Shown here one piece after another: positions 42,833-62,863 of a DNA stretch of 64,000 nucleotides. Made by a program: the position numbers and the translations under genes. Positions within the stretch are counted from its first letter, which is position 1. Each line of letters starts with the position of its first letter. The notes under the pieces were generated by a model. That model saw nothing but the letters and a program-made list of their open reading frames with translations, was not told the DNA's origin and made no database searches. Source of the DNA: Nitrospirales bacterium (GTDB lineage: Bacteria; Nitrospirota; Nitrospiria; Nitrospirales; UBA8639); assembly GCA_029261255.1 (NCBI GenBank), contig JAJDBQ010000093.1:1-64000 (forward strand). Direction: 5' to 3'.

Positions 42833-43147
42833 ATGACAATTCCGGGCCTTGATCCCAGTGGAGAACTGGGAAGACTGTTCTTTCAGATCCAATCAAAATC
42901 CAGTCATGAGAAGGATGTTCGCCAGCCTCAAAGGGTTCCCCAAGGGGGGCACGATGCTGTGGATCTTTCCCGTTTGGCGCAGGACATTCGCACGCATACG
43001 GCACGTGCGGGGGAACTGCCGGATCTTCGAATCGACAAAATTCAACGCGTCCAACAGGTGTTAGCTCAGGGAGGGGAATTGGCTACAGCCGATCAATTGG
43101 CTAATGCGATTGTCCGAGAGACACTGCTGAGCGATTTGGGTTCGTAA
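42833..43147 (+). CDS. flgM: Anti-sigma-28 factor FlgM
   Basis: 104 residues. The C-terminal half (DAVDLSRLAQDIRT, LRIDKIQRVQQVLAQG, TADQLANAIVRETLLSDL) matches the sigma-28-binding region of FlgM, and the N-terminus is disordered. It holds FliA inactive until it is exported through the finished hook. GAAGGAGG sits 10 nt upstream. Its own sigma-28 promoter implies negative feedback, as in classical systems. Confidence 0.9.
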   Translation: MTIPGLDPSGELGRLFFQIQSKSSHEKDVRQPQRVPQGGHDAVDLSRLAQDIRTHTARAGELPDLRIDKIQRVQQVLAQGGELATADQLANAIVRETLLSDLGS

Positions 43148-45329: not shown

Positions 45330-45386
45330 GGGAAACGTCTATGAGAGATGTCGGTCGCGACACGAGGCGAATAGGGGAATCATGAG

Positions 45387-46538: not shown

Positions 46539-46633
46539 TTGAGCAAAGGCATGCCTGACGGATTGGCAGGTACGCAGGGCAGGACGACATAAACGTTTCT
46601 GTTGAAGGCAGAATAAAGGGAAGATAGGCACTG

Positions 46634-47605
46634 ATGAAAATTCTTGTTGTCGATGATGATCCGTTAACCTTGCATATGGTGGTTTACCGTTTGCGTCAAT
46701 GGGGCCATGAAGTCATTTCGTGTACGGATGGAGAATCTGCATGGAAAATTCTTGAAGGAGGAATGGTGCCTAATGTGGCCATTCTGGATTGGATGATGCC
46801 GGGAATCAATGGGCCAGACCTTTGTCAAAAAATTCGTTCAAAAAAAGATTGTCCGTATGTCTACATTGTGTTGTTGACGGGGAGAAACAATCCGGAAGAT
46901 CTCATTGCAGGTTTAGATGCAGGAGCGGATGACTATCTCACTAAGCCATTTCATCTTGGCGAGTTGGAAGCGAGGTTGCGTGCAGGGAAACGTATTGTCG
47001 ATTTGCAAAACGAGTTAATTTCGGCTCGGGAAACGTTGCGTATTCAAGCGATGCAAGATCCTTTAACTCAAGTTCTCAACCATGGTGCGATCTTGGATGC
47101 ACTGTTGAGTGAAATCAATCGAGCTCAACGCGAGCATCAACCATTAAGCCTCATCTTGGCTGATCTCGATTCGTTTAAACATGTGAATGATACGTATGGG
47201 CATGTGGCTGGTGATCATGTGCTTGTTGAAGTGGCTCGACGGATGCGGAACTGTTTGCGGTCATATGATGCCATTGGTCGTTATGGTGGGGAAGAGTTTT
47301 TGATTGTCTTACCCAATAGCGATGACTCCCAAGCTATCGGGTTAGCTGAACGCATTCGAACAGCTGTCGGCTCCGAGCCTTTTCGGCTCCACCATGTTGA
47401 TTTAACTGTCACGCTCAGTCAGGGAGTGACGACTTGGACTGATCCAGATTCTATTCCACTTGAACGATTGATTCAATCGGCTGATCGTGCGTTGTATGGG
47501 GTGAAGCATAGTGGGCGAAATGCTGTGCAACATGTGCAATTTGATCAAGACGCTGAAGACTCATTTTCCCCAATCTTTGTTTCTCCGATTTCAGGTGAAT
47601 CATAA
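46634..47605 (+). CDS. Response regulator with diguanylate cyclase (REC-GGDEF)
   Basis: 323 residues. The receiver (about 1-120; VDDDPLTLHM, acceptor D52 in ILDWMMPGING) is joined by a coiled linker to a GGDEF domain with an active-site GGEEF. A product-inhibition I-site RSYD lies exactly five residues before it, so it is expected to make c-di-GMP with feedback control. It overlaps functionally with the PilZ and HD-GYP genes upstream. The next gene, a hybrid kinase, begins 2 nt after its stop and probably phosphorylates it. Confidence 0.93.
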   Translation: MKILVVDDDPLTLHMVVYRLRQWGHEVISCTDGESAWKILEGGMVPNVAILDWMMPGINGPDLCQKIRSKKDCPYVYIVLLTGRNNPEDLIAGLDAGADDYLTKPFHLGELEARLRAGKRIVDLQNELISARETLRIQAMQDPLTQVLNHGAILDALLSEINRAQREHQPLSLILADLDSFKHVNDTYGHVAGDHVLVEVARRMRNCLRSYDAIGRYGGEEFLIVLPNSDDSQAIGLAERIRTAVGSEPFRLHHVDLTVTLSQGVTTWTDPDSIPLERLIQSADRALYGVKHSGRNAVQHVQFDQDAEDSFSPIFVSPISGES

Positions 47606-47607
47606 AT

Positions 47608-49962
47608 ATGTCCACCTTGCTAGTCATTAACGACGATCCGGTGCAGCTTCATCTGTTGGGAAGTTTGCTAGAGCAAGACCACGAACACGTTGTTCGTTTT
47701 ACTGCCTCTGAATCAGCGTGGCAATGGCTTCAAGACGGACATGTCCCTGATGCTATTATCTTGGATCTTCATATGCCAGGTATCAATGGATGGCGCTTTT
47801 GTGAATTGCTCCATATGCAGGCTGTGCAAGGGCAATCTGTGCCGCCCATTCTCGTTGTCTCCGCGACGTATTCAGGAATGGATGCTGAAGATGTGTTGTC
47901 AGACTTAGGTGCTTCGGCTTTTCTGCCGTTACCCGCAGAACCTGCACGTATTCGACAAGAAGTCCGGCAACTTCTGGAAGAACCTGTGCCACCAAAAGCC
48001 TTTCAGGCATGGATGGTGTCATCGGAGAGTTCTGAGATCACACGAACGCGTTCGGTCTTTGAGAACAGGGGGTGGGAAGTGTACGGATGGCACAGCGGCA
48101 TGGATATGCTGTCAGAATCTTCCTTGCCAGCCCCCGATATGATCATCATTGATGATCCTGTATCGGACGTGACCACGCACGATCTTCTGGCATGGCGCAA
48201 GCGTAAATATCCGCAAGCCAGAGCACTTGTCATGAGTCGTACGTGCGATGCGCGTAGCCCCTCTTCGTTTATCAATGAGTCTGATGTCTATCTGCCCAAG
48301 GGTTGCGAGCCAGAGACGTTGATGACGCTGAGTGAAAAATGGTGTCGTGAACGAGCATTTACGCATGTTGAACATCTTCTCGAAGTGCGAACGAGCGACT
48401 TAAAAGAATCGGAAGCGCAATTTCAAGAGTTATTTGAAATGCTTCCAGATATCTTGGTGATTTATGACGACCAGCGACTCATTCGGCATATCAACACGAG
48501 TGGGGCTCAGCAATTAGGGTACGTGTTTGCAGATTTGCTTGCGACTCCGATCGTAGGCATTCAATCATCTATCCTGACTGAATCAGTGCGTGCGGGCCAA
48601 GTTGAATTGAACAAAATAACGCCACAATGGAGTGAAGCGACCTTGCGGCGAAAAGATGGCACGGAGCTTCCCGTTGAATTAATGGAACGAACTGTTCGAT
48701 TTCAAGGACAACGTCAAACCTTGCTTGTCGCGAGAGACATAACAGCACGACAGCATATGGCACAAGAGAATGCCACGTTAGAGCAACAGTTGCGTCAAGT
48801 TCAAAAAATGGAAGCAGTCGGCCGTTTAGCGTCTGGTGTCGCGCATGACATGAATAACATTCTGACGGCCATTCTGGCACATGCGGGGTTGTTAAAAGTC
48901 CAAAATGATGAAGCGAACCCAGCGTGGAAGGCTGGAGATGTGATTGAAAAAGCCGTTCATCGCGGCAAGGAGATGACGTCGCAACTCTTAGGTTTTGCTC
49001 GTCAGGGCAAACATCATCATGTGCCCGTGGATCTACATGGGGTGATCGAAGAGGTGACGGGATTGTTGGGCCGGACGGTTGATAAAACAATTACTTTGCA
49101 AGAGGACCTTCAGGCTGATGAGCCTTGGGTGGTGGGGGATCCTAACCAACTCTATCAAGTCTTGATGAATTTGGCGGTGAATGCGTCAGATGCCATGTCT
49201 GACAAAGGCAAACTGATTTTTCAGACAAGTAATGAGATGGTTTCCTCCACGCAGGCCTCCCAAGTTCCTGGTTTGGCCGCTGGTGACTATGTCGTTGTGA
49301 GTGTGACCGATACTGGTGATGGTATGCCTGAAGACGTTCAGTCACAAATCTTTGAACCGTTTTTTACGACAAAGGAACTCGGGCGGGGGACGGGTATGGG
49401 CTTGGCGATGGTGTATGGCATTGTGAAAAACCATCATGGGTATATAGGCGTCACGAGCACACCCGGTGTGGGTACAACGATGCGTGTGTATCTGCCATCC
49501 GTTCTGTGCGAGGAGCCTCAGGCCAAATCAGTACCTGCTGTGAAACGTTCTGAGGGAACAGGCCATGTGTTAATTATTGATGATGAGCATGCGGTGGCTG
49601 AAGCCGCGCAAGCTATTCTTGAGTTTTTGGGGTACGACACGACGATTCGATTAAGCGGTCGGGAGGCGTTGGCGTTTTGCCAAGATGCTCTCAATCATGT
49701 GGATTTAGTGTTATTGGATATGGTGATGCCGGATATGAGTGGATCCGAGTGTTTCGCTGAACTACGCCGAATTCGCCCAGAAAGTAAAATTCTTCTGTGT
49801 ACAGGGTATGACCGGAATCATGCAGTGCAAGAACTGTTAAATCAGGGGGTGGTTGGGTTTATTCAAAAACCTTATGACCTTGATGAATTAGGGCAAGTGT
49901 GTGACGCTGCGCTGAAAAGCAACATACCGGCGGAACCGAGTCTAATTGGAAGCCTTGCGTAA
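47608..49962 (+). CDS. Hybrid histidine kinase (REC-REC-like-PAS-HisKA-HATPase-REC)
   Basis: 784-residue soluble kinase. N-terminal receiver (INDDPVQLHLL, acceptor in ILDLHMPGING), a second degenerate receiver-like segment (about 130-255) with an unusual IIIDDP acceptor context, PAS (about 268-380), HisKA with H413 (SGVAHDMNNILTAIL), HATPase (NLAVNASDAM, DTGDGMP, GTGMGLAMVYG) and a C-terminal receiver (IIDDEHAVAE, about D704 in LLDMVMPDMSG). It starts 2 nt after the GGDEF regulator. Role: sensory control of c-di-GMP or flagellar output; the signal is unknown. Confidence 0.92.
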   Translation: MSTLLVINDDPVQLHLLGSLLEQDHEHVVRFTASESAWQWLQDGHVPDAIILDLHMPGINGWRFCELLHMQAVQGQSVPPILVVSATYSGMDAEDVLSDLGASAFLPLPAEPARIRQEVRQLLEEPVPPKAFQAWMVSSESSEITRTRSVFENRGWEVYGWHSGMDMLSESSLPAPDMIIIDDPVSDVTTHDLLAWRKRKYPQARALVMSRTCDARSPSSFINESDVYLPKGCEPETLMTLSEKWCRERAFTHVEHLLEVRTSDLKESEAQFQELFEMLPDILVIYDDQRLIRHINTSGAQQLGYVFADLLATPIVGIQSSILTESVRAGQVELNKITPQWSEATLRRKDGTELPVELMERTVRFQGQRQTLLVARDITARQHMAQENATLEQQLRQVQKMEAVGRLASGVAHDMNNILTAILAHAGLLKVQNDEANPAWKAGDVIEKAVHRGKEMTSQLLGFARQGKHHHVPVDLHGVIEEVTGLLGRTVDKTITLQEDLQADEPWVVGDPNQLYQVLMNLAVNASDAMSDKGKLIFQTSNEMVSSTQASQVPGLAAGDYVVVSVTDTGDGMPEDVQSQIFEPFFTTKELGRGTGMGLAMVYGIVKNHHGYIGVTSTPGVGTTMRVYLPSVLCEEPQAKSVPAVKRSEGTGHVLIIDDEHAVAEAAQAILEFLGYDTTIRLSGREALAFCQDALNHVDLVLLDMVMPDMSGSECFAELRRIRPESKILLCTGYDRNHAVQELLNQGVVGFIQKPYDLDELGQVCDAALKSNIPAEPSLIGSLA

Positions 49963-50007
49963 GGCGATGGTACGTGTGAATCTTCAAAGTTGGGAGGGGT
50001 ACAACAT

Positions 50008-50487
50008 ATGGTGACTATTCAAACGAGTCGATTTGGTCAGATTGATGTGTCGGAAGATACTTTCCTGACCTTTCCCACGGGGCTTGTTGGCTTCCCAGCT
50101 GTTCAACAATTTGTGGTGTTAGATGTGGCAGAGGATTGCCACTATCAATGGTTTCAAGCCATCAAAGAACCGGATTTAGCTCTAATCATTATTGATGTGC
50201 ATTGCCTCGATCCTGAATTCCCAGTAGAAGCTTCTGATGAAGCGATCGCAGAATTAGAGATCAGGCCAACGGACCCTGTGCTCATTATGGCCGTGGTGAC
50301 TATTCCCTCGGGAGAACCTGACCGCGCGACAGCGAATCTTCGTGCGCCGCTCGTTGTGAATTTACGTACTCGAAAAGGCAAACAATTGATCTTACATGAG
50401 TCCATTCCCTTGCATTTTCCTTTACTGCCAGAAGCCGAATCTGCTCAGGCAGAGGTGCTTCCGGTGAAGGAAACCGCATCGGTCTAA
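50008..50487 (+). CDS. fliW: Flagellar assembly factor FliW
   Basis: About 159 residues starting at ATG 50008, which has GGGAGGGG 8 nt upstream (the track start is a TTG at 49990). Conserved blocks are FPTGLVGFPAVQQFVVLD, FQAIKEPDLALIII and NLRAPLVVNLRTRKGKQLIL. FliW binds and antagonises CsrA until flagellin titrates it, matching flagellin translation to secretion. csrA follows directly, a common pairing, though flagellin itself is not in the window. Confidence 0.95.
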   Translation: MVTIQTSRFGQIDVSEDTFLTFPTGLVGFPAVQQFVVLDVAEDCHYQWFQAIKEPDLALIIIDVHCLDPEFPVEASDEAIAELEIRPTDPVLIMAVVTIPSGEPDRATANLRAPLVVNLRTRKGKQLILHESIPLHFPLLPEAESAQAEVLPVKETASV

Positions 50488-50547
50488 TCAGGAACGTTTC
50501 ATTGATGACGCGCTAACCATACTCAGGTACTAGCCAAGGAAGGCATC

Positions 50548-50808
50548 ATGCTCATACTAACCAGAAAAAAAGATGAAGCGATCCGTCTCGGCGAAGACAT
50601 TCGAATTGTCTTAGTCCAAATTAAAGGTGGGCAAGTGCGCCTTGGCATTGAATGTCCCTCCACGATGCGAGTCCTCCGTGAAGAACTCTACGAAGCGGTT
50701 CGTAAAGAAAACTTAAATGCGCTTTCCATCGATCCCTCACAAATCCAAGCCCTTCCTAAAAGCCTAAAGCTTCCCCCAAAAGACCTCAAGCCGCCTTCGA
50801 CTTCGTAA
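50548..50808 (+). CDS. csrA: Carbon storage/translational regulator CsrA
   Basis: 86 residues. The canonical CsrA fold (MLILTRKKDEAIRLGEDIRIVLVQIKGGQVRLGIECP) with the RNA-binding arginine in VLREELYEA, plus a Pro/Lys-rich tail of about 25 residues beyond the usual end. It represses flagellin translation and is relieved by FliW. AAGGAAGG precedes ATG. A GC-rich hairpin lies downstream. Confidence 0.96.
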   Translation: MLILTRKKDEAIRLGEDIRIVLVQIKGGQVRLGIECPSTMRVLREELYEAVRKENLNALSIDPSQIQALPKSLKLPPKDLKPPSTS

Positions 50809-50826
50809 CTCACTTGAGGGTTTATT

Positions 50827-50847
50827 CCCCGTCCGCATGCGGCGGGG
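50827..50847 (+). terminator. GC-rich hairpin after csrA, possible terminator
   Basis: CCCCG-T-CCGC pairs with GCGG-CGGGG (one bulge, tiny loop) 19 nt after csrA. There is no T-tract after it. Confidence 0.45.
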
Positions 50848-51035
50848 ATCACTACTTCTCAATAGGGCATTAATTCTAAGACATTTGCGCATGTTCGCCT
50901 TCTCAATTGCTTCTCCTCTATTGAGATTTTGCCCACCATGGTGAGGCTAGATTCTCAAGAGCGCGACTTCCTTTAAACCCACCGACATACACTTTCTTCT
51001 ACCTGAACGAATTTGTATCGATGCTCACTGTGGCA

Positions 51036-51051
51036 TGGCACAAATCTTGTA
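51036..51051 (+). promoter_or_regulatory. Possible sigma-54 promoter of the glycan cluster
   Basis: TGGCACAAATCTTGTA matches TGGCAC-N5-TTGCA except that the -12 GC is GT, which normally weakens promoters. It lies about 80 nt before the HddC-like gene. Confidence 0.4.
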
Positions 51052-51131
51052 GTTCTATTCCAATGTTGGCTTTTATATGACGTTTCTTAGCATCCCTTGT
51101 CGTTTCGGAATGAGGGAGAAGAGATCTGGAA

Positions 51132-51905
51132 ATGAATCCAAATACTTTGTTTTGTACGAATAATAGGCAATTTGGGACGCCAGTGGGGATCACTGCCGTC
51201 ATTCTAGCTGGTGGGCTAGGTATGCGTTTGCGATCGGTTGTACAAGATCGGTCAAAAGTGATGGCAAATGTTGCCGGGCGACCCTTTCTTACCTATGTGC
51301 TGGATCAAATAGTAAACGCAGGAATTAAACGAGCTGTTATATGCACTGGATTTTTGGGAGATTCCATTTCTACCGTTCTGCAGGACGATTATCGAGGATG
51401 TCAGTTGCTCTACTCACACGAAATGACGCCATTAGGAACGGCTGGAGCATTGAGACAAGCGTTATCAAAATTACTGACTTTTCCGGTTCTTGTCTTTAAT
51501 GGTGATTCGTATGTGGACGTGGACTTAGAGAAATTTACAGAATTTCATGTCTCCCGACAGAGTAAATTGAGTGTGACTTTAACAAAGAAATCTTGTAGTG
51601 CCGCATTCGGGTTAGTGGAATTGGATGCTCAAGGAGAGGTAAAAAGATTCTCTGAAAAGGAATCAACAGGAAAACCAGAATGGGTCAATGGAGGGGTGTA
51701 TATATTGGAACAGAAAATATTTGAATCGATATCCGAAATGAAAGTGGTTTCTCTTGAGCGGGAGATTCTCCCAGCATGGGTTGGTAGGGGGCTGCATGGT
51801 TTTCCTCAACACGGGGAGCTGTTTGATATTGGAACGCCTGAATCATTGTCGGAAGCTCAAAGTTATTTTGCGGAATGTAATTCTCAATCATTGGCCTGCC
51901 CATAG
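51132..51905 (+). CDS. hddC: Sugar-phosphate nucleotidyltransferase, HddC-like
   Basis: 257 residues. ITAVILAGGLGMRLRSVVQDRSKVMANVAGRPFL is the nucleotide-binding signature; the acidic catalytic site is in FNGDSYVDVD, and NGGVYIL and LEREILPAW are typical of D-glycero-D-manno-heptose 1-phosphate guanylyltransferases. It is expected to form GDP-heptose from heptose 1-phosphate and GTP. An HddA-like kinase (55005) and a GDP-sugar dehydratase-like SDR (54031) in the same cluster support a GDP-heptose route. Another NDP-hexose transferase cannot be excluded. Confidence 0.75.
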   Translation: MNPNTLFCTNNRQFGTPVGITAVILAGGLGMRLRSVVQDRSKVMANVAGRPFLTYVLDQIVNAGIKRAVICTGFLGDSISTVLQDDYRGCQLLYSHEMTPLGTAGALRQALSKLLTFPVLVFNGDSYVDVDLEKFTEFHVSRQSKLSVTLTKKSCSAAFGLVELDAQGEVKRFSEKESTGKPEWVNGGVYILEQKIFESISEMKVVSLEREILPAWVGRGLHGFPQHGELFDIGTPESLSEAQSYFAECNSQSLACP

Positions 51906-51923: not shown

Positions 51924-52859
51924 ATGAACATGAATTCGCCCGAAATATTTGAACGGTTATTTTTTCAAGCCTTACGTATTCGGCTTGTAGAAGAACGAAT
52001 CATTGAATTGTATCCCTCCGACGCGATTCAAAGTCCGGTTCATTTATCGATTGGTCAAGAGGCCGTGGCGGTTGGCGCATGTGAACCATTAACAAACCAG
52101 GACCTTGTCTTTTGTACCTACCGAAGCCATGCGTTTTATTTGGCTAAGGGCGGAAACCTCAATGAAATGTTTGCAGAACTCTATGGCAAAATCACGGGAT
52201 GTGCCAGGGGTAAAGCGGGATCAATGCATTTAGCTGCCCCTGAAGTAGGCCTCATGGGTGCGTCGGCGGTTGTCGCGAGCACAATTCCCCATGCCGTAGG
52301 TGCGGCGCTTGCCGCAAAACGGTTGAACAAAAAACAAGTAATCGTGGGAGTGTTTGGAGATGGAGCGACAGAAGAGGGCGTCTATCATGAATCACTAAAT
52401 TTTGCAGCCCTTCATCGTTTGCCTGTGGTTTTTTTATGTGAAAACAATGGCCTCGCGGTGCATTCGTATCAAAAGGCGAGACAAAGCTTTGAAATTTCAG
52501 GGCATGCTCAATCATATGGGCTTCCGGTTCACCACATTACTGAAGGATATGATTTCGTCAAGGTCGCGGGGGTCATGTCAGAAATTATTGATCACGTGCG
52601 GACGGATCAAGCCCCGGCCTTTGTTGAGATTCAGACCTGTCGGTACAAAGAACATGTGGGGCCAGGAGAAGACTTCTCTTGTGGGTATCGGAATATCGAA
52701 GAATTTCAGGAATGGAAGCAACATGACCCACTCGAACAATTTCCTAAATTAGTGGAAACATTTCGGCCTATGATTCTGAAAGAAATCGATGCAGCGATTG
52801 ATTTTGCAGAACGTAGCCCTTTTCCTTCGATCGAGGAGTTACTCTGTGATGTCGTGTAA
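51924..52859 (+). CDS. TPP-dependent dehydrogenase E1 alpha-type subunit
   Basis: 311 residues related to the alpha subunit of pyruvate/acetoin dehydrogenase E1. The TPP motif begins GDGATEEGVYHE and closes at CENN, with HLSIGQEAVAVG and the YRSHAFYLAKGG and GSMHLAAP substrate-channel blocks. It is paired with the beta subunit downstream (11-nt overlap). No E2 lipoyl or E3 gene is nearby, so the pair probably does not feed an oxo-acid dehydrogenase complex. In avilamycin biosynthesis an E1-like pair adds a two-carbon unit to a sugar, a plausible model here. That role is inferred. Confidence 0.85.
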   Translation: MNMNSPEIFERLFFQALRIRLVEERIIELYPSDAIQSPVHLSIGQEAVAVGACEPLTNQDLVFCTYRSHAFYLAKGGNLNEMFAELYGKITGCARGKAGSMHLAAPEVGLMGASAVVASTIPHAVGAALAAKRLNKKQVIVGVFGDGATEEGVYHESLNFAALHRLPVVFLCENNGLAVHSYQKARQSFEISGHAQSYGLPVHHITEGYDFVKVAGVMSEIIDHVRTDQAPAFVEIQTCRYKEHVGPGEDFSCGYRNIEEFQEWKQHDPLEQFPKLVETFRPMILKEIDAAIDFAERSPFPSIEELLCDVV

Positions 52860-53988
52860 TACCGCGATGACCTTACCTGTGAACTGTGATGACGATGTGG
52901 TCAGTAATGGGGCAGACACAGAAGTACAGGTGATCAGTTACCGTGATGCGTTGCATCGGACAATGCACGAAGCACTTCGTCTTCACGATTCTGTGATTAT
53001 TATTGGGCAGGGTGTTGATGATCATAAGGGCATATTTGGCTCCACCATAGGGTTGGCTCAAGAATTCGGTCTTGATCGTGTGATGGATACGCCACTGGCT
53101 GAAGAAGGGATGACGGGGGTAGCTATTGGTGCAGCATTAAATGGCTTGTATCCGATCCAGACGCATATCAGGGCAGATTTTTCGTTATTGGCGATGAATC
53201 AAATAATTAATTTAGCGGCCAAATATAAATACATGTTTGGTGGCCGATTCGAAGTTCCTATGTTGATTCGGATGATTGTTGGACGCAGCTGGGGGCAAGG
53301 CGCTCAGCATTCCCAAAGTCTTCAATCACTTTTTGCGCATATTCCAGGTTTAAAAGTCGTAATGCCTTCGAGTTCACAAACGATTCTAGACACGTACCCG
53401 AGCGTGATCGCTGAGTATCGCGGACCTGTCATTTCGTTTGAGCATCGACTTATGTATGACTTGAATTTTCAGATTGATCCTCTATTGACGAAGCAGAAAC
53501 GAGATCCTTTTGGGTCGTATGTGGTTCGGCAAGGTAACGATATCACCATTGTCGCCACCTCAATCATGGTGTTGGAAGCTATGAGAGTCGCTGACCATTT
53601 AGCCAAGGTGGCGGGTATTCAATGTGAAGTTATTGATTTACATTGCGTATCGAATCCCGACTGGAATTTGATGATGCAGAGTGTCGAAAAAACTGGACGA
53701 TTAGTGGTGGCGGATACGAGTTGGCGTGAATATGGCGTGTGTGCGGAAGTCTGTCGCGTGGTGGCTGAACGAAACCCTGGTTGCTTAAGGAAACCTGTGG
53801 TGTCATTGGCAATGCAACCGGCGCCCTGTCCTACGGCCAAGTCGCTGGAAGATATGTTTTATCCTGACCTACGCCAATTCGCCAATGCGATTGCCACACT
53901 TGTTCATGGAAACGAAGAACATGGAATTCAATTGCCAGACACACAATCGATGGCGGATGTGTATAAACGGTTTAAAGGGCCATTTTAA
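52849..53988 (+). CDS. TPP-dependent dehydrogenase E1 beta-type subunit
   Basis: About 379 residues from ATG 52849 (GAGGAG 10 nt upstream); the track start 52789 lies deep in the previous gene. Conserved blocks are DTPLAEEGMTGVAIGAALNG, the central RSWGQGAQHSQSLQSLFAHIPGL stretch and SFEHRLMYD. This subunit completes the TPP site with the alpha chain. It lies between hddC and the dehydratase-like gene, which suggests action on a sugar nucleotide or its precursor. Confidence 0.85.
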   Translation: MSCNTAMTLPVNCDDDVVSNGADTEVQVISYRDALHRTMHEALRLHDSVIIIGQGVDDHKGIFGSTIGLAQEFGLDRVMDTPLAEEGMTGVAIGAALNGLYPIQTHIRADFSLLAMNQIINLAAKYKYMFGGRFEVPMLIRMIVGRSWGQGAQHSQSLQSLFAHIPGLKVVMPSSSQTILDTYPSVIAEYRGPVISFEHRLMYDLNFQIDPLLTKQKRDPFGSYVVRQGNDITIVATSIMVLEAMRVADHLAKVAGIQCEVIDLHCVSNPDWNLMMQSVEKTGRLVVADTSWREYGVCAEVCRVVAERNPGCLRKPVVSLAMQPAPCPTAKSLEDMFYPDLRQFANAIATLVHGNEEHGIQLPDTQSMADVYKRFKGPF

Positions 53989-54030: not shown

Positions 54031-55008
54031 ATGAAAATTTTAATCACGGGTATCACAGGAATGGTGGGGAGTCACCTAACCGAATATGTTTTGTCTCACC
54101 AACCTCATGTGGAAGTTCATGGAATGCTGCGGTGGCGTAGTCCTTTAAATCATATTAGCCATCTTCAGGATCGAATCCATTTACATTATGCGGAACTACG
54201 AGATCTTCATTCACTGGTGGCGCTTCTTCGAAAAGTACAACCTGAGCGAATTTTTCATTTAGCGGCCCAATCGTTTGTCACCACAAGTTTCGATGCGCCT
54301 GCGGATACGTTGCACACGAATATCATTGGCACAACCAATTTGCTGGATGCTATTCGTCTAACGGGAATTGACACCAAGATACATGTCTGTAGCTCGTCTG
54401 AAGTGTATGGACAAGTCTTAGAAGATGAAGTCCCCATTAAAGAATCCAATCCATTTCGTCCTGCAAGTCCGTATGCCGTCTCCAAGGTCGGCGAAGACAT
54501 GATCGCGTTTCAATATTTTCTTTCTTATGGGATCAAAACCTACCGCACACGAATGTTTACCCATACCGGTCCACGCCGGGGTGACGTTTTTGCGGAAAGC
54601 GCCTATGCCAAACAGATTGTGGAAGTAGAAACCGGCCTTCGAGCCAATCCGATTCGGATCGGTAATCTGAACAGTATTCGTACATTTGCAGATGTACGAG
54701 ATGCGGTTCGAGCCTATTGGATGTTGCTAGAAAAATGCGAGCCTGGGGAGGTGTATAACATCGGCGGCAATCGTACGATGACCTGCGGGGACATGCTTGA
54801 AGAGTTAAAGAAGATGGCTCGTTGTCCCATTGAGCATGTAGTAGATCCGGCACTTCTCCGTCCATCCGATGTTACGTTACAGGTTCCGGATACGAGAAAA
54901 TTTCATGATGCAACGGGATGGGTCCCTGAAATCTCCTTCGAAGATACACTTCGTCATTTGCTTGACTATCAACGTGATAAAGCCAAAAAAATGGTGTTAG
55001 CCGCATGA
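54031..55008 (+). CDS. Extended SDR, GDP-mannose/GDP-heptose 4,6-dehydratase-like
   Basis: 325 residues. The Rossmann motif is GITGMVGSHL; SSSEVYG and the catalytic pair in PYAVSKVGED (Y-x3-K) follow, with the HTGPRRGDVF loop typical of GMD-type dehydratases. It would convert GDP-mannose or GDP-manno-heptose to the 4-keto-6-deoxy form. With HddA/HddC-like genes beside it, a DmhA-like GDP-heptose dehydratase is likely, but substrate is not certain. It overlaps the next gene by 4 nt. Confidence 0.82.
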   Translation: MKILITGITGMVGSHLTEYVLSHQPHVEVHGMLRWRSPLNHISHLQDRIHLHYAELRDLHSLVALLRKVQPERIFHLAAQSFVTTSFDAPADTLHTNIIGTTNLLDAIRLTGIDTKIHVCSSSEVYGQVLEDEVPIKESNPFRPASPYAVSKVGEDMIAFQYFLSYGIKTYRTRMFTHTGPRRGDVFAESAYAKQIVEVETGLRANPIRIGNLNSIRTFADVRDAVRAYWMLLEKCEPGEVYNIGGNRTMTCGDMLEELKKMARCPIEHVVDPALLRPSDVTLQVPDTRKFHDATGWVPEISFEDTLRHLLDYQRDKAKKMVLAA

Positions 55009-56126
55009 TTATTTCTCGGACTCCTTATCGGTTGTCTTTTTTTGGAGGGGGGACAGATTTTCCGGAATGGTACCTCAGAGAAGAAGGAGCTGTTCTTTCT
55101 GTCACTATCGATAAGTATTGCTATTTGAGTTGTCGCCACCTGCCTCCTTTTTTCAATATTAAACACCGCATTGTGTGGTCGCACATTGAAACGGTCTCAA
55201 GTATATCTGAAATTCTGCATCCGGCTGTTCGCGAAGGATTACGATTTTTAGGTTTTGATGATTCGCAGGGTGTAGAAATTCAGCATCAAGGTGATTTGCC
55301 TGCAAGAAGTGGCATTGGATCCAGTTCTTCATTTTCGGTGGGGCTGGTCAAAGCGCTCACAGGGATGAAGGGAGGGATGTTGGGGAAAATGGAGCTGGCG
55401 CGTCAGGCCATGACATTGGAACAAGACATTTTAAAGGAAACTGTGGGTTCACAGGATCAAATTGCTGCCGCGTTCGGAGGATTTAATTGTATACGATTTT
55501 TAAGAGACGGGCAGATACAGGTCGAACCAGTTACGTTGTCCTCGGGTCGAGTGGCGGAACTTGAACAGAGTCTGATCTTGCTCTATACAGGAACGGGCCG
55601 ATTTGGTTCAGAAATTTCTAAAAATGTGACGAAAAATTTTCCGATGCGATCAGCGGAACTCTCAGAAATGAGGGGTATGGTTGATAAAGGTCTGAGTATT
55701 TTATCTGGTGAAGGTTCTCTGGATGAATTTGGACGCTTGCTGCATAAAAGTTGGATGCTGAAACGTAGTCTTTCCAATGAAATTTCCAATGCTACGATTG
55801 ATGAAATCTATCAGCAAGCTCTGGACAATGGAGCCATCGGTGGAAAACTTTCTGGGGCCGGTGGCAGTGGTTTTATGTTGTTTTATGTTCCCATCCCTAT
55901 GCAGGCCCAATTCCTTTGGGCAATGACTCCATATATCTGTGTGCCGTTTGCGTTTACTCAATCGGGAAGTAGCATTATTTATTACGATGGTCCTGATCAA
56001 ATGTTAAACGGAGCGGAACCCTCTGGCATAGAAGGGCCGTATCAGAAATTGGGAGAACGAGATCTTCCAAGTCTCAAAGCCAATGGGCGGGCTAAGGAAA
56101 AAACCCTTGTAGGAAATCGAGCCTAG
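55005..56126 (+). CDS. hddA: GHMP-family sugar kinase, HddA-like
   Basis: 373 residues. The N-terminal ISRTPYRLSFFGGGTDFPEWY and the ATP loop LPARSGIGSSSSFSVGL are diagnostic of D-glycero-D-manno-heptose 7-phosphate kinase and related GHMP sugar kinases. GGKLSGAGGSGFMLFY is the third GHMP motif. It would make heptose 1,7-bisphosphate for HddC after a phosphatase step. GmhA and GmhB partners are not seen in the window. A fucokinase-like role is the main alternative. Confidence 0.82.
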   Translation: MIISRTPYRLSFFGGGTDFPEWYLREEGAVLSVTIDKYCYLSCRHLPPFFNIKHRIVWSHIETVSSISEILHPAVREGLRFLGFDDSQGVEIQHQGDLPARSGIGSSSSFSVGLVKALTGMKGGMLGKMELARQAMTLEQDILKETVGSQDQIAAAFGGFNCIRFLRDGQIQVEPVTLSSGRVAELEQSLILLYTGTGRFGSEISKNVTKNFPMRSAELSEMRGMVDKGLSILSGEGSLDEFGRLLHKSWMLKRSLSNEISNATIDEIYQQALDNGAIGGKLSGAGGSGFMLFYVPIPMQAQFLWAMTPYICVPFAFTQSGSSIIYYDGPDQMLNGAEPSGIEGPYQKLGERDLPSLKANGRAKEKTLVGNRA

Positions 56127-56699
56127 ATGAGTAGTGTGGCATCAATTGAGAATTCAAGTCATCCACGAGTGTCTGAAGCCAAAGAAGTTTTTGAATGCCC
56201 GTGGTTTCATGTCCATGAGGAAAAGTGGGAGAACCCTTCTGATTTAGACCCAGGGCCTTTTTATCGTATTGAAAGTCTCAATAGTGTTTTGGTTTTGGCT
56301 TTAACGAGCGATGGTGAAATTATCCTAGTACGGCAATTTCGTCATGCCATTCGAGCGACGACTCTTGAAATCCCTGCTGGAAGCATAGAAGGAGGAGAAA
56401 CTCCGGAGCAAGCGGCGGAACGTGAATTACTAGAAGAGACTGGGTATCGGGCCGGTACGCTTCGTTTAGTGGGTAACGGACACATCATGATGAATAGATA
56501 CAGTGCGAGAGATTTTTTATTTTTAGCCGAACATTCTGTTGTAGTTCCGCGTCATCCAAAAGAACAACACCCCGATGTGCTGTTGCTCTCGCTCGGAGAG
56601 TTTAAAGACTTAGTGATCGCTGGGGGGGTTACGCAGATTCCTGCCCTTTCCCTTTTCTGTCTAGTTGAATGGAAACTCGGCTCACGGCTCGTGGCATAA
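56127..56699 (+). CDS. Nudix hydrolase (ADP-sugar pyrophosphatase-like)
   Basis: 190 residues. A perfect Nudix box G-x5-E-x7-REx2EE-x-G (starting GSIEGGETPEQ) binds Mg2+ for pyrophosphate cleavage. The FRHAIRATTLEIPAG lead and length match NudF-type ADP-ribose/sugar pyrophosphatases. Its ATG follows the hddA stop directly. It may clear dead-end NDP-sugars; the natural substrate is unknown. Confidence 0.85.
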   Translation: MSSVASIENSSHPRVSEAKEVFECPWFHVHEEKWENPSDLDPGPFYRIESLNSVLVLALTSDGEIILVRQFRHAIRATTLEIPAGSIEGGETPEQAAERELLEETGYRAGTLRLVGNGHIMMNRYSARDFLFLAEHSVVVPRHPKEQHPDVLLLSLGEFKDLVIAGGVTQIPALSLFCLVEWKLGSRLVA

Positions 56700-56700
56700 C

Positions 56701-57567
56701 ATGGACATTCAGGCTCTTTCACAAAAATCTTCAGAGTTAAGACTTCATATTCTCAATGCTGCTTTGAAAGCTGGAAAAGGACATGTTCCTCCGGCCTTTT
56801 CCTGGGTGGAAATTGGAGTGGCTTTGTTTTATGGGGGGCATCTTTCCTTTCGGCCTTCTGAACCAAAATGGGAAGGTCGGGACCGCTTTATCCTGAGTAA
56901 GGGGCATGGCTGTTTGACCCTATACGCGATTCTGGCGGACTTAGGTTTTATCCCAAAGGAGGCATTGGATTCCTTCTGCCAACCAGGCAATGTGCTAGCG
57001 GGGCATCCCGATACAAATATTCCAGGCGTGGAAGTCATTTCAGGTTCTCTTGGGCATGGCTTAGGGGTTAGTGCTGGCTTAGCGTTGGGAGCAAAACTCA
57101 ATTCTCAATCATGGAATGTCGTAACGGTTATGGGGGATGGTGAATGCCAGGAAGGATCCGTATGGGAAGCGGCCATGTTTGCGAGCCACCACCGTCTCGA
57201 TAACCTTGTAGCGGTTATTGATCGTAATCAGTTAGGTGCGACTAGTTTTACAGAGAAAAACCTTACCTTAGAACCATTAGAGAATAGGTGGGAAGCCTTT
57301 GGTTGGGATGTGGTTAGTATTGATGGGCATTCATTTGAAGAGTTAAACCGGGTCTTTTCCAGTATCGGACATCGAACCTCCACAAAACCTCTTCTTGTGC
57401 TAGCGGAGACAGTAAAAGGAAAAGGTGTTTCATTTATGGAAAGTTCTGTTGATTGGCATCATCGACTTCCCAAGGGAGATGAAGTGAAAGACGCTCTTCG
57501 ACAGCTGACGGAACCTAACATCCATTCAGGCTTAGTCGAATCGATGGAGATGGTTCATGATGCGTGA
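56701..57567 (+). CDS. Transketolase-like N-terminal subunit
   Basis: About 288 residues from ATG 56701 (the track start 56665 overlaps the Nudix gene). It is the TPP-binding half of a split transketolase: SKGHGCLTLYAIL, GSLGHGLGVSAGLALG, and the TPP motif starting GDGECQEGSVWEAA. The second half follows with an 11-nt overlap. Such split enzymes occur in sugar pathways. It may supply sedoheptulose 7-phosphate for heptose synthesis or transfer two-carbon units to a keto sugar. Confidence 0.87.
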   Translation: MDIQALSQKSSELRLHILNAALKAGKGHVPPAFSWVEIGVALFYGGHLSFRPSEPKWEGRDRFILSKGHGCLTLYAILADLGFIPKEALDSFCQPGNVLAGHPDTNIPGVEVISGSLGHGLGVSAGLALGAKLNSQSWNVVTVMGDGECQEGSVWEAAMFASHHRLDNLVAVIDRNQLGATSFTEKNLTLEPLENRWEAFGWDVVSIDGHSFEELNRVFSSIGHRTSTKPLLVLAETVKGKGVSFMESSVDWHHRLPKGDEVKDALRQLTEPNIHSGLVESMEMVHDA

Positions 57568-58501
57568 TTTTCGTGATGCGGTTTTTGACGGTGTCTTAGA
57601 GGTCGTAGCTCAAGATCCTCGAGTCATGGTCTTGACCAATGACATGGGGGCAATGGGTTTAAGCCAAATTCAGGAATCATTTCCCAAGCAAGTTTTAAAC
57701 GTGGGGATCAGTGAGCAAAACATGATGAGTGTCGCAGCAGGGTTGGCTCTTTCCGGAAGTATGGTCTTTGCCTATGGTATCGCTTCACATATCACATCAC
57801 GATGCTACGAACAGTTGAAATTGGACGTATGTGCGCTAAATGTTCCAGTGGTTATCCTAGGAATGGGGTCGGGGTTGTCATATGGGATAGATGGGCCGAC
57901 TCATCACTCAACTCATGATTGCGCCCTTCTTCAAACACTGCCTGAGATGACAATTTATATTCCTGCAGATGGTGTGGCGACCAAGGCGATTGTTGCACGA
58001 GCCTATAGGGAGAGAACGCCAGCCTATATCAGAATTGATAAGGACCCCTATGAGCCTATCTATACTGCAGAGATTCATGATTTCAGCTTAGGCAATAGCA
58101 CGGTTCAAGAGGGGGAGTCCCTTTGTGTGGTAACGAATGGCATCATGCTTCATCGCGTACGTGAGGTCGCCACAGAGTTACTCCGTGAGGGAATTGAGCT
58201 GACAATTATTGATCTTTATCGTTTGAATCCTTGTAATGAATCTCTACTGTTAGAGGCATGTCACGGAGCCCAGGCCATTGTGACGGTGGAAGAACATGGT
58301 CGTTTTGGTGGAATAGGGAACTTGGTCGGGCGCTTACTAAGCGAGCAGGGAATACGTATTCCCTTTAAGGGCATATCCTTGAGTGATGAAACCATGTTTG
58401 GAGCAGCCAGTCGAAGCTGGGCTCATGCCAAGTATGGTCTTGATAAAGAAAACTTAAAGAATGAGCTTAGGCAAATGGCTCTCTTTCCCATGACGGTTTG
58501 A
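57557..58501 (+). CDS. Transketolase-like C-terminal subunit
   Basis: 314 residues with the pyrimidine-binding and C-terminal domains (VGISEQNMMSVAAGLALSGSMVF, HHSTHDCALLQTLPEM, VTVEEHGRFGGIGNLVG). SEQN contains the catalytic Glu that activates TPP. It completes the enzyme begun by the previous gene. This is the second split TPP enzyme in the cluster. Confidence 0.87.
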   Translation: MMRDFRDAVFDGVLEVVAQDPRVMVLTNDMGAMGLSQIQESFPKQVLNVGISEQNMMSVAAGLALSGSMVFAYGIASHITSRCYEQLKLDVCALNVPVVILGMGSGLSYGIDGPTHHSTHDCALLQTLPEMTIYIPADGVATKAIVARAYRERTPAYIRIDKDPYEPIYTAEIHDFSLGNSTVQEGESLCVVTNGIMLHRVREVATELLREGIELTIIDLYRLNPCNESLLLEACHGAQAIVTVEEHGRFGGIGNLVGRLLSEQGIRIPFKGISLSDETMFGAASRSWAHAKYGLDKENLKNELRQMALFPMTV

Positions 58502-58533: not shown

Positions 58534-59544
58534 ATGCTGAACAAAAAACTCTCCTTCTATCATGGGAAAAAAGTTCTAGTCGCTGGTGGGACCGGAATGA
58601 TTGGTATCCCTCTCATTCAAGCATTACTGAAATTCGAGGCTCAGGTTACAGTAGTTTCTCTTGAGCAGGAAGAGTACGCAAAAGGATTGCTGGGATCGTC
58701 TATCAAGTTTTTTCGGGGAGATTTAACTCAATATAGTACATGTGAAAGGGCAATGGAAGGGCAAGAGTATGTATTCAATTTGGTTGGGATTAAAGGATCA
58801 GTTGGTATTGGAGTAAAAAGAGCGGCAAGTTACTTTGTGCCGATGCTTCGCTATCAATCAAATTTGTTAGAGGCAGCGTATCGTGGAGGTATATCTCGGT
58901 ATCTCTTTGTTAGCAGTATTTGTGCGTATCCACCTTCAGATTTTCATGAGGAGGATAATCTTTGGAATGGTCTTCCCAAGCAAAATGATCGCTATGCGGG
59001 GATTGCAAAACGCGTTGGAGAAATTGAAGCCGAAACGTACCTACATGAATACAATTGGGATGCTGTGCGAGTCGTTCGGCCTTCCAATGTGTATGGACCA
59101 TTTGATGATTTTAACCCAGCCACTGCGCAAGTGATTCCTGCTCTTATTCGTAGAACGTTGGATGGAGAGCGGCCTGTTTGCATTTGGGGCGACGGATCAG
59201 TCATCCGAGATTTTATTTTTGTGCAGGATGTTGTCGATGGATTGTTGTTGGCTTTGGAAAAAGCACCGCCTTGTTTTCCGATTAATTTAGGAAGTGGTAT
59301 CGCTACGACTATCAAAGACTTAGCTGAAGTCATTGTTGCTAAAAGCAATGTCCGCACTTCGATTGAGTGGGATCCCTCAAAGCCATCGGGTGACCCGATC
59401 CGGTTGTTGTCAATACAACGGGCAGAAGATTCCATTGGATGGTGCCCTAAAACGTCTCTCCGCGAAGGAATTCAACAAACCATCGCTTGGTATATGAAAA
59501 ACCAGGAACTGGCTCATGAACGCAAAAACCTTCTCAGCGCCTAA
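58534..59544 (+). CDS. NAD-dependent epimerase/dehydratase (extended SDR)
   Basis: About 336 residues from ATG 58534; the track start is a TTG (58498) overlapping the previous stop. The NAD loop is VAGGTGMIG; SSICAYPPSDF and NVYGPFDDFNPATAQVIPAL follow. The expected catalytic Y-x3-K is not exact: the Tyr lies five residues before the Lys (YAGIAK). A paralogue with the same organisation is at 62893. It probably reduces, epimerises or dehydrates an NDP-sugar; product unknown. It overlaps the next gene by 29 nt. Confidence 0.8.
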   Translation: MLNKKLSFYHGKKVLVAGGTGMIGIPLIQALLKFEAQVTVVSLEQEEYAKGLLGSSIKFFRGDLTQYSTCERAMEGQEYVFNLVGIKGSVGIGVKRAASYFVPMLRYQSNLLEAAYRGGISRYLFVSSICAYPPSDFHEEDNLWNGLPKQNDRYAGIAKRVGEIEAETYLHEYNWDAVRVVRPSNVYGPFDDFNPATAQVIPALIRRTLDGERPVCIWGDGSVIRDFIFVQDVVDGLLLALEKAPPCFPINLGSGIATTIKDLAEVIVAKSNVRTSIEWDPSKPSGDPIRLLSIQRAEDSIGWCPKTSLREGIQQTIAWYMKNQELAHERKNLLSA

Positions 59545-59983
59545 GAATAAAAAGGTAAAAACTAAAGGACTGCTAAGCCCTCGATTTGTTCCAGGATTGG
59601 GAGATTTGATCGATCGATTGTCAGTCGATCAATTGAAGGAGGCGTTTCATGCGTCCATGAGAACGTCAATCAGATCTGAAATTGCTGACTTAGAACATGA
59701 TATTGATGAGTGGGCGGAGCTGTCTCAGATTAAATTATCTGGGCGGAACGTTCGAACGATTATCGTGCTTGCGCAAATCAATTATGAAATTTGGATGTGT
59801 AAAGAGCGTATGGAAGCAGAAGCTCAACATTACGATAAATGGCTGAGGAGAGCACATCAATTGAACGGAATACGAAATCGAATGAAGAACTTACTGTTGG
59901 TGGAGGTTCAAAGAGAAAGCAGGCAGTGCCCAGCAAGTAATCTATCCGTTGATGTTTTAGAAGATTGGAATATTCAGTTTTAA
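59516..59983 (+). CDS. Conserved-looking hypothetical helical protein
   Basis: 155 residues starting inside the preceding SDR. It has a basic N-terminus, then a segment (FVPGLGDLIDRLSVDQLKEAF...EIADLEHDIDEW) and a helical core (INYEIWMCKERMEAEAQ). The GDLIDRLS and paired-helix pattern reminds me of small uncharacterised proteins found with glycosyltransferases, but I cannot name a family. The tight overlap and shared direction support a real gene in the glycan operon. Confidence 0.65.
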   Translation: MNAKTFSAPKNKKVKTKGLLSPRFVPGLGDLIDRLSVDQLKEAFHASMRTSIRSEIADLEHDIDEWAELSQIKLSGRNVRTIIVLAQINYEIWMCKERMEAEAQHYDKWLRRAHQLNGIRNRMKNLLLVEVQRESRQCPASNLSVDVLEDWNIQF

Positions 59984-59996
59984 CCATAAGTTAAAA

Positions 59997-61112
59997 ATGC
60001 TTTTCAAAACCTTAGGCCAAACCGACATAGAAATTTCCGCGATCGGTCAGGGTTGTGGAATTCATCATTCCCTGAGCACACGGGAGGTCTATAGGCAACT
60101 TGAATCTACGATTCGGGCTGGAATTGATATGGGGATGAACTTTATTGATACCGCACCTGTATACGGTGACGGGGAGTCTGAAATAGTCCTCGGCAAAGCA
60201 TTGAAGGGAATCCGCGATAGAGTTGTGTTGGCGACAAAGGTCTCCCCTGAGAATTTATCCATTCAGGGCATCGAAGATTCAATGAAGATGAGTCTCTGTC
60301 GACTGAAGACAGATCGGATTGATCTTCTCCAAATCCATTGGCCAAATCCTCAAATCCCTATTTTGGAAACGTTACGAGGTCTTGAAAAAATGGTGCAAGA
60401 GGGGTTGGTCCGGTATGTGGGACTTTGTAACTTTTCAATCAAAGAAACGCAATATATTCAACAACAGCTTTCCCCGAAGCTCCTGGCCTCAGTTCAAGTC
60501 GAATATAATTTATTCGATCGGAGTATTGAGCGAGACTTTTTACCATTGGCTCAAAAATCAGATATCAGCATTATTGCCTATAGTCCTCTTCATCGGGGAC
60601 GAATTGTTGCGAATCAAAAACAGTGGGCCATTCTTCAGGGAATTGCGAGCAAATATCAAAAAACGCCTGCGCAGATTGTTTTACGTTGGTTGACCAAGCA
60701 ACAACCCGTTGTGGTGATCCCAAATACGACAAACATCCAACGAGTGAAAGAAAATGCCGAAAGTCTGAATTTTGATATAGAGGAAGAGGATATTAGATGT
60801 CTTGAGCAAAAATGTAGGGGCCATCTTCTTGATGTTCCTCCGAGTTCAATCCAAGTTGCAGATGATTCAGGGCGTTCAGTCTATCGAACGCTTGGGGAAG
60901 CTATGGAGAATGCTATGAAGTGTGTCCCCAGCCCACAGGATTTGGCGAAACAAATTGAAAATGGTGATTTTCTGAAGCCAGTTCGGCTGCGACCTGCAGG
61001 ATCCTCTCGTGAGAAATTTGAATTATTAGAAGGTCGAATTCGATATTGGGCTTGGGTGATTGCCCATGGGTTCGATAAACCTCTACCAGCGTTGATTGAG
61101 GATTATTCATGA
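59997..61112 (+). CDS. Aldo/keto reductase with ParB-like C-terminal extension
   Basis: 371 residues. Residues 1-280 form an aldo/keto reductase barrel with the catalytic tetrad D51, Y56, K81 and H114 (DTAPVYGDGESE, LATKVS, LQIHWPNP) and the NADPH-binding PNTTNIQRVKEN loop. Residues about 283-371 are extra: PSPQDLAKQIENGDFLKPVRL...LEGRIRYWAWVIAHG resembles the ParB/Srx-like fold, including the GxxRxxA motif. It may reduce a keto sugar; the role of the tail is unknown. It overlaps the next gene by 4 nt. Confidence 0.82.
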   Translation: MLFKTLGQTDIEISAIGQGCGIHHSLSTREVYRQLESTIRAGIDMGMNFIDTAPVYGDGESEIVLGKALKGIRDRVVLATKVSPENLSIQGIEDSMKMSLCRLKTDRIDLLQIHWPNPQIPILETLRGLEKMVQEGLVRYVGLCNFSIKETQYIQQQLSPKLLASVQVEYNLFDRSIERDFLPLAQKSDISIIAYSPLHRGRIVANQKQWAILQGIASKYQKTPAQIVLRWLTKQQPVVVIPNTTNIQRVKENAESLNFDIEEEDIRCLEQKCRGHLLDVPPSSIQVADDSGRSVYRTLGEAMENAMKCVPSPQDLAKQIENGDFLKPVRLRPAGSSREKFELLEGRIRYWAWVIAHGFDKPLPALIEDYS

Positions 61113-62089
61113 AATTGGCAGATGAGATGATGGTCGGCACCTCAAATATTTTGCAAACCTGTGAGCAACCAGCAGAGCTGACTCAAGAAGACTTTGAAGA
61201 TCTTTTTGGAGAGCCCTCGGGGACATTCTTTCATGAATGTCAGAAATTGATAGAAAGTCTAGATTTTCGATATGACATTCTAAAGGGTCCTTTTCGTGAA
61301 GAAGTTTTTCTGCGGGTGTTGAATACACTCCATCAGGATCTAGAAGTCGCCGGGAAACATCGGAAACAACGTTGGGAAGATGGGTGGGGGGAAAACCTCA
61401 GTCAATTTCGAAGCACTGGGTATGATTTGGCTGCTTTGGCTCCAAAATTTGTCCGGCTGCAGGAAATCATTAGATTGCGTGGGGAATATGTTCGCCCTTA
61501 CTGCGATCAATTTGAATCAAATTTTGTCAAAGTGTTGCGTCAATGGATGTTTAAGAAATGGTTTCATTCTATCGACCATATTTACGAATTTGGTTGTGGA
61601 ACTGGGCACAATTTGATCGATGCGGCTGTTTTGTTTCCAGACCGTCCGTTGTATGGCTTGGATTGGTCTCAAGCCTCACAAGTCATTCTTCGACTTATGA
61701 AAGAATACCATGGGTTTAATATTGTAGGTCGAGAATTTGACATGCTAGATCCAGATGCATCCTTTGCTCTCAATCCTCAAAGCGGAGTGTTTACCGTTGG
61801 GGCCATGGAGCAGTTAGGGAATCAGTATCATGCTTTTTTGAACTATATCCTCGCGCAACGTCCTCAAGTATGTGTGCATGTGGAAACCTTGTATGAGCTC
61901 TATGATCAGTCAGATCTATTTGATTATGTAGCGGCAAAATATCTTGAGAAAAGAAAATATTTGCGAGGAATGCTTGGCACTTTGCAAGCTCTTGAAAAGG
62001 AAGGCCACCTTCAAATTTTGGGAACAATTAGAACGTTTGGTTCTCTGTATCATGATGGATATTCGGTAGTGATTTGGAAGCCCCTGTAG
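61109..62089 (+). CDS. Class I SAM-dependent methyltransferase
   Basis: 326 residues. An N-terminal helical region (about 1-145) precedes a Rossmann methyltransferase domain with motif I YEFGCGTGHNLI, an acidic strand YGLDWSQAS, and motif IV region FTVGAMEQLG. The substrate is unknown; a sugar or a glycan-bound acceptor is likely from context. It starts by ATGA overlap with the aldo/keto reductase gene. Confidence 0.8.
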   Translation: MKLADEMMVGTSNILQTCEQPAELTQEDFEDLFGEPSGTFFHECQKLIESLDFRYDILKGPFREEVFLRVLNTLHQDLEVAGKHRKQRWEDGWGENLSQFRSTGYDLAALAPKFVRLQEIIRLRGEYVRPYCDQFESNFVKVLRQWMFKKWFHSIDHIYEFGCGTGHNLIDAAVLFPDRPLYGLDWSQASQVILRLMKEYHGFNIVGREFDMLDPDASFALNPQSGVFTVGAMEQLGNQYHAFLNYILAQRPQVCVHVETLYELYDQSDLFDYVAAKYLEKRKYLRGMLGTLQALEKEGHLQILGTIRTFGSLYHDGYSVVIWKPL

Positions 62090-62101: not shown

Positions 62102-62863
62102 ATGGTGAATGCAGAACAATTAGATATTAAGTCATATGCGGATTCAAGTGAGCAGATGGCGCGTCGACAAATGGGCACTTTACTTTCCCAGACTCTGATT
62201 CCTCCTGAACAATTGTTGCCAAATCTCGGGCTTTTTCTTGAATCAAAAAATTTGTCTCGTCTGTTATTTATGGATTTTCTATATCGTCAGATGATCTCTG
62301 TTCAAGGTGTCATCATGGAGTTTGGGGTGCGCTGGGGGCAAAATCTTGGGTTGTTTTCAGCCTTGCGCGGTATTTATGAACCTTTCAATCGACATCGAAA
62401 AATTGTGGGTTTTGACACGTTTACAGGTTTTCCTTCAATTCATGAAAAAGATGGGCAATCAAGCATGATGGTGAATGGACAATTGGCCGTTGCCCCTCAA
62501 TATAAAGAAACGCTTCAACAGTTGTTAGATGTACATGAATCACTCAATCCATTGGCTCATATCAAAAAAAATGAATTGTGTGAAGGTGATGTTGTGGATG
62601 AGTTGCCGAAGTATTTGAGTCGATGTCCAGAAACTATCGTAGCAATGGCGTATTTTGATTTGGATTTGTATGAACCGACCGTTAAATGTCTTGAGCTCCT
62701 CCGTCCTAGAATGACCAAAGGAACGGTCTTGGGATTTGATGAACTGAATGATCCTGATTCTCCTGGAGAAACGCTTGCCCTCATGGAAGTCTTTGGCCTG
62801 AATCATTTGAGAATTCAACGGTTTCCTTTTGCTTCCCGAGTGTCATATGTGGTGATCGAATAG
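62102..62863 (+). CDS. TylF/MycF-like sugar O-methyltransferase
   Basis: 253 residues. MEFGVRWGQNLGLFSAL is the SAM-binding motif and FDTFTGFPSIHEKDG, YFDLDLYEPTVKCLELL and LGFDELNDPDSPGET are the acidic metal/substrate motifs of the TylF/MycF macrocin O-methyltransferase family. It probably methylates a sugar hydroxyl. TAGGAGGAACGT before ATG is a good ribosome site. It is the second methyltransferase in the cluster. Confidence 0.82.
   Translation: MVNAEQLDIKSYADSSEQMARRQMGTLLSQTLIPPEQLLPNLGLFLESKNLSRLLFMDFLYRQMISVQGVIMEFGVRWGQNLGLFSALRGIYEPFNRHRKIVGFDTFTGFPSIHEKDGQSSMMVNGQLAVAPQYKETLQQLLDVHESLNPLAHIKKNELCEGDVVDELPKYLSRCPETIVAMAYFDLDLYEPTVKCLELLRPRMTKGTVLGFDELNDPDSPGETLALMEVFGLNHLRIQRFPFASRVSYVVIE

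Follow-up and report, generated by a model that had tools for sequence, protein, structure and literature searches.

An aldo/keto reductase fused to a ParB/Srx-fold tail, recurring in sugar-biosynthesis gene clusters of distant bacterial phyla

Results

The fusion gene and its domains

The gene under study occupies positions 59997–61112 (+) of the window, by which we mean the whole 64,000-nt stretch of DNA analysed. Its ORF encodes 371 aa plus a stop codon, in the same frame and with the same residues as quoted in an earlier note that had described a fusion of an aldo/keto reductase (AKR) to a ParB-like domain, and that description is confirmed here. Residues 1–272 (59997–60812, +) form the reductase barrel, which is placed in the AKR superfamily by the Pfam model PF00248 (Aldo_ket_red, covering residues 33–271 with 213.7 bits against a cut-off of 24, E 3.9e-63) and has Tm1743 (5dan, E 1e-47) as its nearest solved relative. 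The AKR catalytic tetrad (D51, Y56, K81, and H114, spanning 60147–60338, +) is intact: across 26 sequences the first three residues are invariant and H114 is conserved in at least 90%. In a full-length structure model (pLDDT 92, pTM 0.90), the last AKR helix runs to residue 272 and the first strand of the ParB fold starts at residue 276, giving a tail of ∼97 residues (275–371; 60819–61109, +) that contains both PSPQDLAKQIE and GRIRYWAW. The earlier note correctly reported a domain here, of ∼90 residues from 60840, though its true start is slightly farther upstream. The pTM of the full-length model suggests that the tail is held in a fixed position relative to the barrel. A chance or frameshift fusion is ruled out, since all relatives, found at other loci, share the architecture.

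A conserved sugar cluster

The fusion gene lies in a sugar cluster that starts at 51.1 kb and continues past the window end. Upstream of the fusion are a sugar-phosphate nucleotidyltransferase (51132–51902, +; PF00483), which shares 26–43% identity with its counterparts at other loci (that of L006 being HddC-like), a 2-oxoacid dehydrogenase E1 alpha/beta-like pair (51924–53985, +; PF00676, PF02779, and PF02780), a 4,6-dehydratase-like (Gmd-like) SDR with an HddA-like sugar kinase (54031–56126, +), and the N and C genes of a split transketolase (56665–58501, +; PF00456, PF02779, and PF02780). Downstream is a CalS11-type NDP-sugar 3-O-methyltransferase (62102–62863, +; E 1.4e-69 to CalS11, 4gf5). 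The cluster also holds a NUDIX protein, SDRs, a methyltransferase-like protein, and an RmlC-like epimerase. Among 19 context loci with a complete fusion gene (L006 and L056 come from one genome, which makes the number of independent loci slightly smaller), a CalS11-like gene is present in every one, next to the fusion gene or one gene away (upstream of it in L005), while a split transketolase is present in 15, either a transketolase or E1 in 16, an HddA-like kinase in 13, and an RmlC-like epimerase in 12 (13 with L008); no ThDP enzyme was found in 3 of the 19 within the locus DNA scanned. The nucleotide-sugar pathway that the earlier note had assumed is thus shown by conserved gene context across loci.

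Several other features of the region deserve mention. A 155-aa protein encoded at 59516–59983 has no Pfam or NCBIfam match, yet occurs in 10 of 20 loci scanned, in several phyla and usually just upstream of AKR-ParB; by this co-occurrence it would represent an undescribed family tied to the AKR-ParB pathway. The methyltransferase-like protein at 61109–62089 scores under all Pfam cut-offs and was found in 11 loci. At the other end of the cluster (43683–51902), the sugar genes come directly after flgK-, flgL-, and fliW-like genes, recognized by eye from their translations, and a weak FlgM match lies at 42833–43144. Because flagellar-like genes precede the cluster, the sugar made by it may be attached to flagellin or may itself be a glycan of the cell surface. 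Past the window end, the cluster is directly followed by a 3028-aa ORF with a glycosyltransferase-like start (L053:3549–12632).

Evidence for the ParB/Srx fold

ParB is a nucleotide-binding chromosome-segregation protein. A single-sequence Pfam search with the tail gave only a weak match to ParB_N (PF02195; 12.3 bits, E 0.17), short of the curated cut-off of 26.3 bits. At E 0.1 this model matches just 4 of 26 family members (best E 0.0021), and a PF02195 search of the window's genome found the canonical ParB and did not list the AKR-ParB tail. The NCBIfam model for PRTRC ParB (PRTRC_parB) matches the tail at E 4.4e-5, as it does 15 of the 20 family tails. When a profile of 20 tails from many phyla was run against 177,635 PDB sequences, Noc, Spo0J, and ParB were the sole matches to E 1 (E 0.01–0.2). 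Alignment of the tail profile by hhalign with seven canonical ParBs, each taken from a genome that has the fusion too, yielded P 8.6e-7 and a probability of 91.5; for 100 column-shuffled controls the best P was 0.033 and the probability never rose above 1.5. Finally, the best 50 PDB structure matches of an AF2 model of the tail (pLDDT 86.8, pTM 0.79) all have the ParB/Srx fold (top E 8.6e-5, TM 0.64 by query length), comprising ParB, Noc, KorB, PadC, sulfiredoxin, SerK/SbnI, and the hypothetical Pyrococcus protein 1vk1. The earlier note had let its proposal of a ParB/Srx fold hang on whether profile search would find ParBc similarity; such similarity was found both by the 20-tail profile in the PDB and by hhalign, and together with the structure matches it establishes the fold, with a resemblance beyond chance. 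Matches of the single tail sequence to influenza PA in the PDB (E 0.24–1.5) cover a short stretch only and disappear with the profile.

Motifs kept and lost

The GxxRxxA motif named in the earlier note is located at G346-R347-I348-R349-Y350-W351-A352. It belongs to a P motif, GRIRYWAW (residues 346–353; 61032–61055, +), that aligns with GERRxRA of ParB and is invariant in all 19–20 normal tails aligned. Preceding it, a C-motif-like helix and loop (residues 311–328, PSPQDLAKQIENGDFLKP; 60927–60980, +) aligns with LxxSIxxxGLLQP of ParB/Noc, and P311, P313, L316, K327, and P328 are invariant in the 20 tails. Because the phosphate motif is invariant, nucleotide binding by the tail is plausible; a survey of ParB-fold proteins (PMC12704722) describes an arginine mutation that abolished binding in the proteins tested, and this arginine corresponds to the invariant R349 here. 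The residues for hydrolysis are a different matter. Q52A and E93A are hydrolysis-defective mutants of Myxococcus xanthus ParB (PMC9178275), and in the PDB sequences 7bnr and 7o0n Q52 is the Q of QPR and E93 the E of GERR. Counterparts of both are absent from the family alignment, in which there is no QPR and R347 of GRIR stands at the Glu position, and Box III (ENxQR) is absent too, the chain ending before its position. Given these losses, the tail is predicted from its motifs to bind nucleotide and not to hydrolyse it.

We rejected a role in DNA partition (ParABS): there is no HTH and no ParA among the neighbours, and the AKR and tail fill all 371 aa, with no dimer domain. Since the tail has its fold in common with the ATP-using SerK, SbnI, and Srx, it could be thought to perform catalysis of its own, such as a kinase or phosphotransfer reaction on the sugar; the P loop (GRIR) lacks an Srx-type catalytic Cys, however, and the cluster already includes a GHMP kinase, and we consider this very improbable.

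Distribution and constraint

A genome scan recovered 19 loci, and all 18 with a whole ORF encode AKR-ParB fusions of ∼370–400 aa, the ORF of L008 being cut by a contig end. The hosts represent at least eight phyla overall and include Nitrospirota, Omnitrophota, Levybacteria, Nealsonbacteria, Chloroflexota, Bacillota (Heliobacterium), Planctomycetota, Desulfuromonadaceae, Myxococcota, and Rhodospirillaceae. When 1,654 genomes from five phyla, the seed genomes among them, were searched with the tail profile, 8 contained the family, every frame being at least 368 aa long, and no standalone or swapped tail was found; short frames elsewhere are explained by a contig edge (G018) or by stops (G028). 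The fusion family is rare and patchy, and never standalone within the genomes searched. One locus has a single 570-aa ORF that joins the AKR and ParB-fold tail to an RmlC-like 3,5-epimerase (L005:5113–6825). Among the matches listed in a plasmid search there were only ordinary AKRs, and an apparent full-length match, from Paenibacillus, was discarded because the gene encodes a 330-aa AKR and the alignment continues beyond its stop. Invariant positions make up 18% of the tail but 8% of the barrel in the 19 sequences that have GRIRYWAW; judged by this measure, conservation is stronger in the tail than in the reductase, which excludes a decaying appendage.

The earlier note had proposed that the tail could sense or use a nucleotide and so regulate the reductase. 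In this view the tail would be an allosteric sensor of ATP, CTP, or GTP that switches or tunes the enzyme. ParB folds on other enzymes do bind NTPs, ATP in a methyltransferase fusion and GTP in an acetyltransferase fusion, and the loop DFLKP resembles the GFFKP listed for ATP binders, according to the survey, whose authors nonetheless state that the nucleotide is not predictable from sequence (PMC12704722). A timed switch is not expected of a domain that lacks the hydrolysis residues and Box III, and a general sensor might be expected on other enzymes too, which is at odds with the result from the 1,654 genomes. Regulation of the reductase by an NTP or NDP-sugar is possible, but as an account of the tail we judge an allosteric sensor unlikely, if still a serious candidate.

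Second copies

Some genomes have a second AKR-ParB gene, adjoining the first or a few genes off; the cultured species Heliobacterium mobile has two copies, and the window's genome has the intact copy only. Second copies from Levybacteria and Nitrospirales (L006:4070–5176, L009:4074–5177, L029:667–1806, and L030:676–1824) have lost GxxR and show LDSYD....KKYxAW instead, keeping Y.AW and the fold. Milder variants are GEHIR in Heliobacterium and GQIR in Desulfuromonadaceae, and in L002/G028 stop codons interrupt a further copy. In a phylogenetic tree (disregarding one row, L052, a wrong-strand artefact) the GxxR-lost copies fall together with full-length sequences (87/91) and with tails (94/87), and do not with the barrel alone, which gives moderate support for their common grouping.

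These divergent copies, retaining Y.AW and the fold after loss of GxxR, would suit a structural or docking domain that builds oligomers or channels substrate to the CalS11-type methyltransferase, its ligand binding being vestigial; paired copies could then form a hetero-oligomer, and the presence of that methyltransferase in all 19 loci fits as well. The invariance of GRIR in the main copies, however, goes beyond what a scaffold needs, and we think such a role rather improbable.

Discussion

Proposed role of the fusion

The C-terminal loop of AKRs governs substrate binding and choice (PMC9427786). The tail begins four residues past the last AKR helix, at the point where Tm1743 ends; with that helix running to residue 272 and the ParB fold starting at 276, the tail takes the place of this loop. 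Because it sits at the substrate-loop position, a direct grip on the nucleotide of the substrate fits at least as well as regulation. Our tentative best reading, held with somewhat less than even confidence, is that AKR-ParB acts as ketoreductase on a C-branched NDP-sugar, and that its tail stands in for the substrate loop and grips the nucleotide without hydrolysing it.

The neighbouring genes indicate what the substrate might be. In the paulomycin pathway, addition of an acetyl (two-carbon) branch has been proposed for Pau11/12, which are E1-like; reduction of the branch ketone by the AKR Pau7 has been shown, and O-methylation is assigned to a homologue of CalS11 (PMC4425429, PMC4753412). 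For miharamycin and amipurimycin, it has been proposed that split transketolases move a hydroxyacetyl group onto keto sugars (PMC12247030), and CalS11 itself methylates TDP-rhamnose at the sugar-nucleotide stage (PMC4760980). The enzyme set in common with paulomycin-type pathways suggests, by analogy, that the product is a two-carbon-branched, O-methylated NDP-sugar and that AKR-ParB is the branch ketoreductase. We infer the following order of steps. The reductase would act on a nucleotide-linked deoxy sugar, probably two-carbon-branched, to which the ThDP enzyme (split transketolase and/or E1-like pair) would have added a two-carbon keto branch at a keto sugar; AKR-ParB would reduce the branch carbonyl, and the CalS11-type neighbour would O-methylate the product before its release from the nucleotide. 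The ParB-fold tail, in place of the AKR substrate loop, would bind the nucleotide of the substrate through GRIRYWAW, and its base-bearing part would be guanosine should a GDP-sugar be what the HddA/HddC-like genes produce.

Several points count against this reading. Pau7 does the proposed chemistry without a tail, and on the assembled antibiotic; 17 of 28 proteins in a screen of ParB-fold proteins showed no NTP binding (PMC12704722); in 3 of the 19 loci no ThDP enzyme was found within the DNA scanned; and sedoheptulose 7-phosphate, destined for GmhA/HddA/HddC-type heptose genes, could be what the split transketolase makes instead. An extension of the same reading, in which the ParB-type fold is a non-hydrolysing handle that presents the NDP-sugar to the AKR and the paralogue without the phosphate motif is a second subunit in some lineages, we regard as doubtful.

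The recurrence of the fusion in unusual-sugar clusters of many phyla suggests, as far as gene content can tell, a tail that either holds on to a nucleotide or senses one. ParB-fold CTP switches have recently turned out to be a wider NTP-binding module. If our reading is true, a ParB fold without hydrolysis residues is at work in a sugar-biosynthesis enzyme across distant phyla, and the fold has uses in metabolism as well as in DNA or RNA transactions. The cluster appears to encode a pathway, so far undescribed, to surface sugars that are branched and O-methylated, mostly in uncultured bacteria.

Comparison with known systems

With the N-terminal CTPase fold of ParB/Noc (PF02195; 7bnk, 7ol9, and 6sdk) the tail has in common the fold itself, the C-motif helix and loop, and GxxRxxA, whereas it lacks NPxQPR (Q52), the P-motif Glu (E93), Box III, the HTH, the dimer domain, and ParA, is fused behind a reductase, and falls below the Pfam cut-off. 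Sulfiredoxin, SerK, and SbnI are nucleotide-binding proteins of the same fold, but the Srx Cys is absent from the tail. Closer in arrangement are the fusion enzymes of Kaljevic et al. 2025 (PNAS; PMC12704722), which carry a ParB fold on a metabolic or modifying enzyme, as here; aldo/keto reductases ('aldo') do not occur in the main text of that paper. That survey searched with PF02195, and since Pfam ParB_N misses AKR-ParB tails, it probably missed this family too. Our literature search on AKR plus ParB found nothing relevant.

On the reductase side, the closest solved barrel is Tm1743 (5dan), ∼35% identical and ending where the ParB tail begins. The octose ketoreductase Pau7 (AKR5I) of paulomycin is likewise an AKR clustered with an E1-like two-carbon ligase, a 3,5-epimerase, and a CalS11-like methyltransferase. 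Pau7 differs in having 272 aa and no ParB tail, and in acting on the assembled antibiotic; a tail that grips the nucleotide would set AKR-ParB apart from it.
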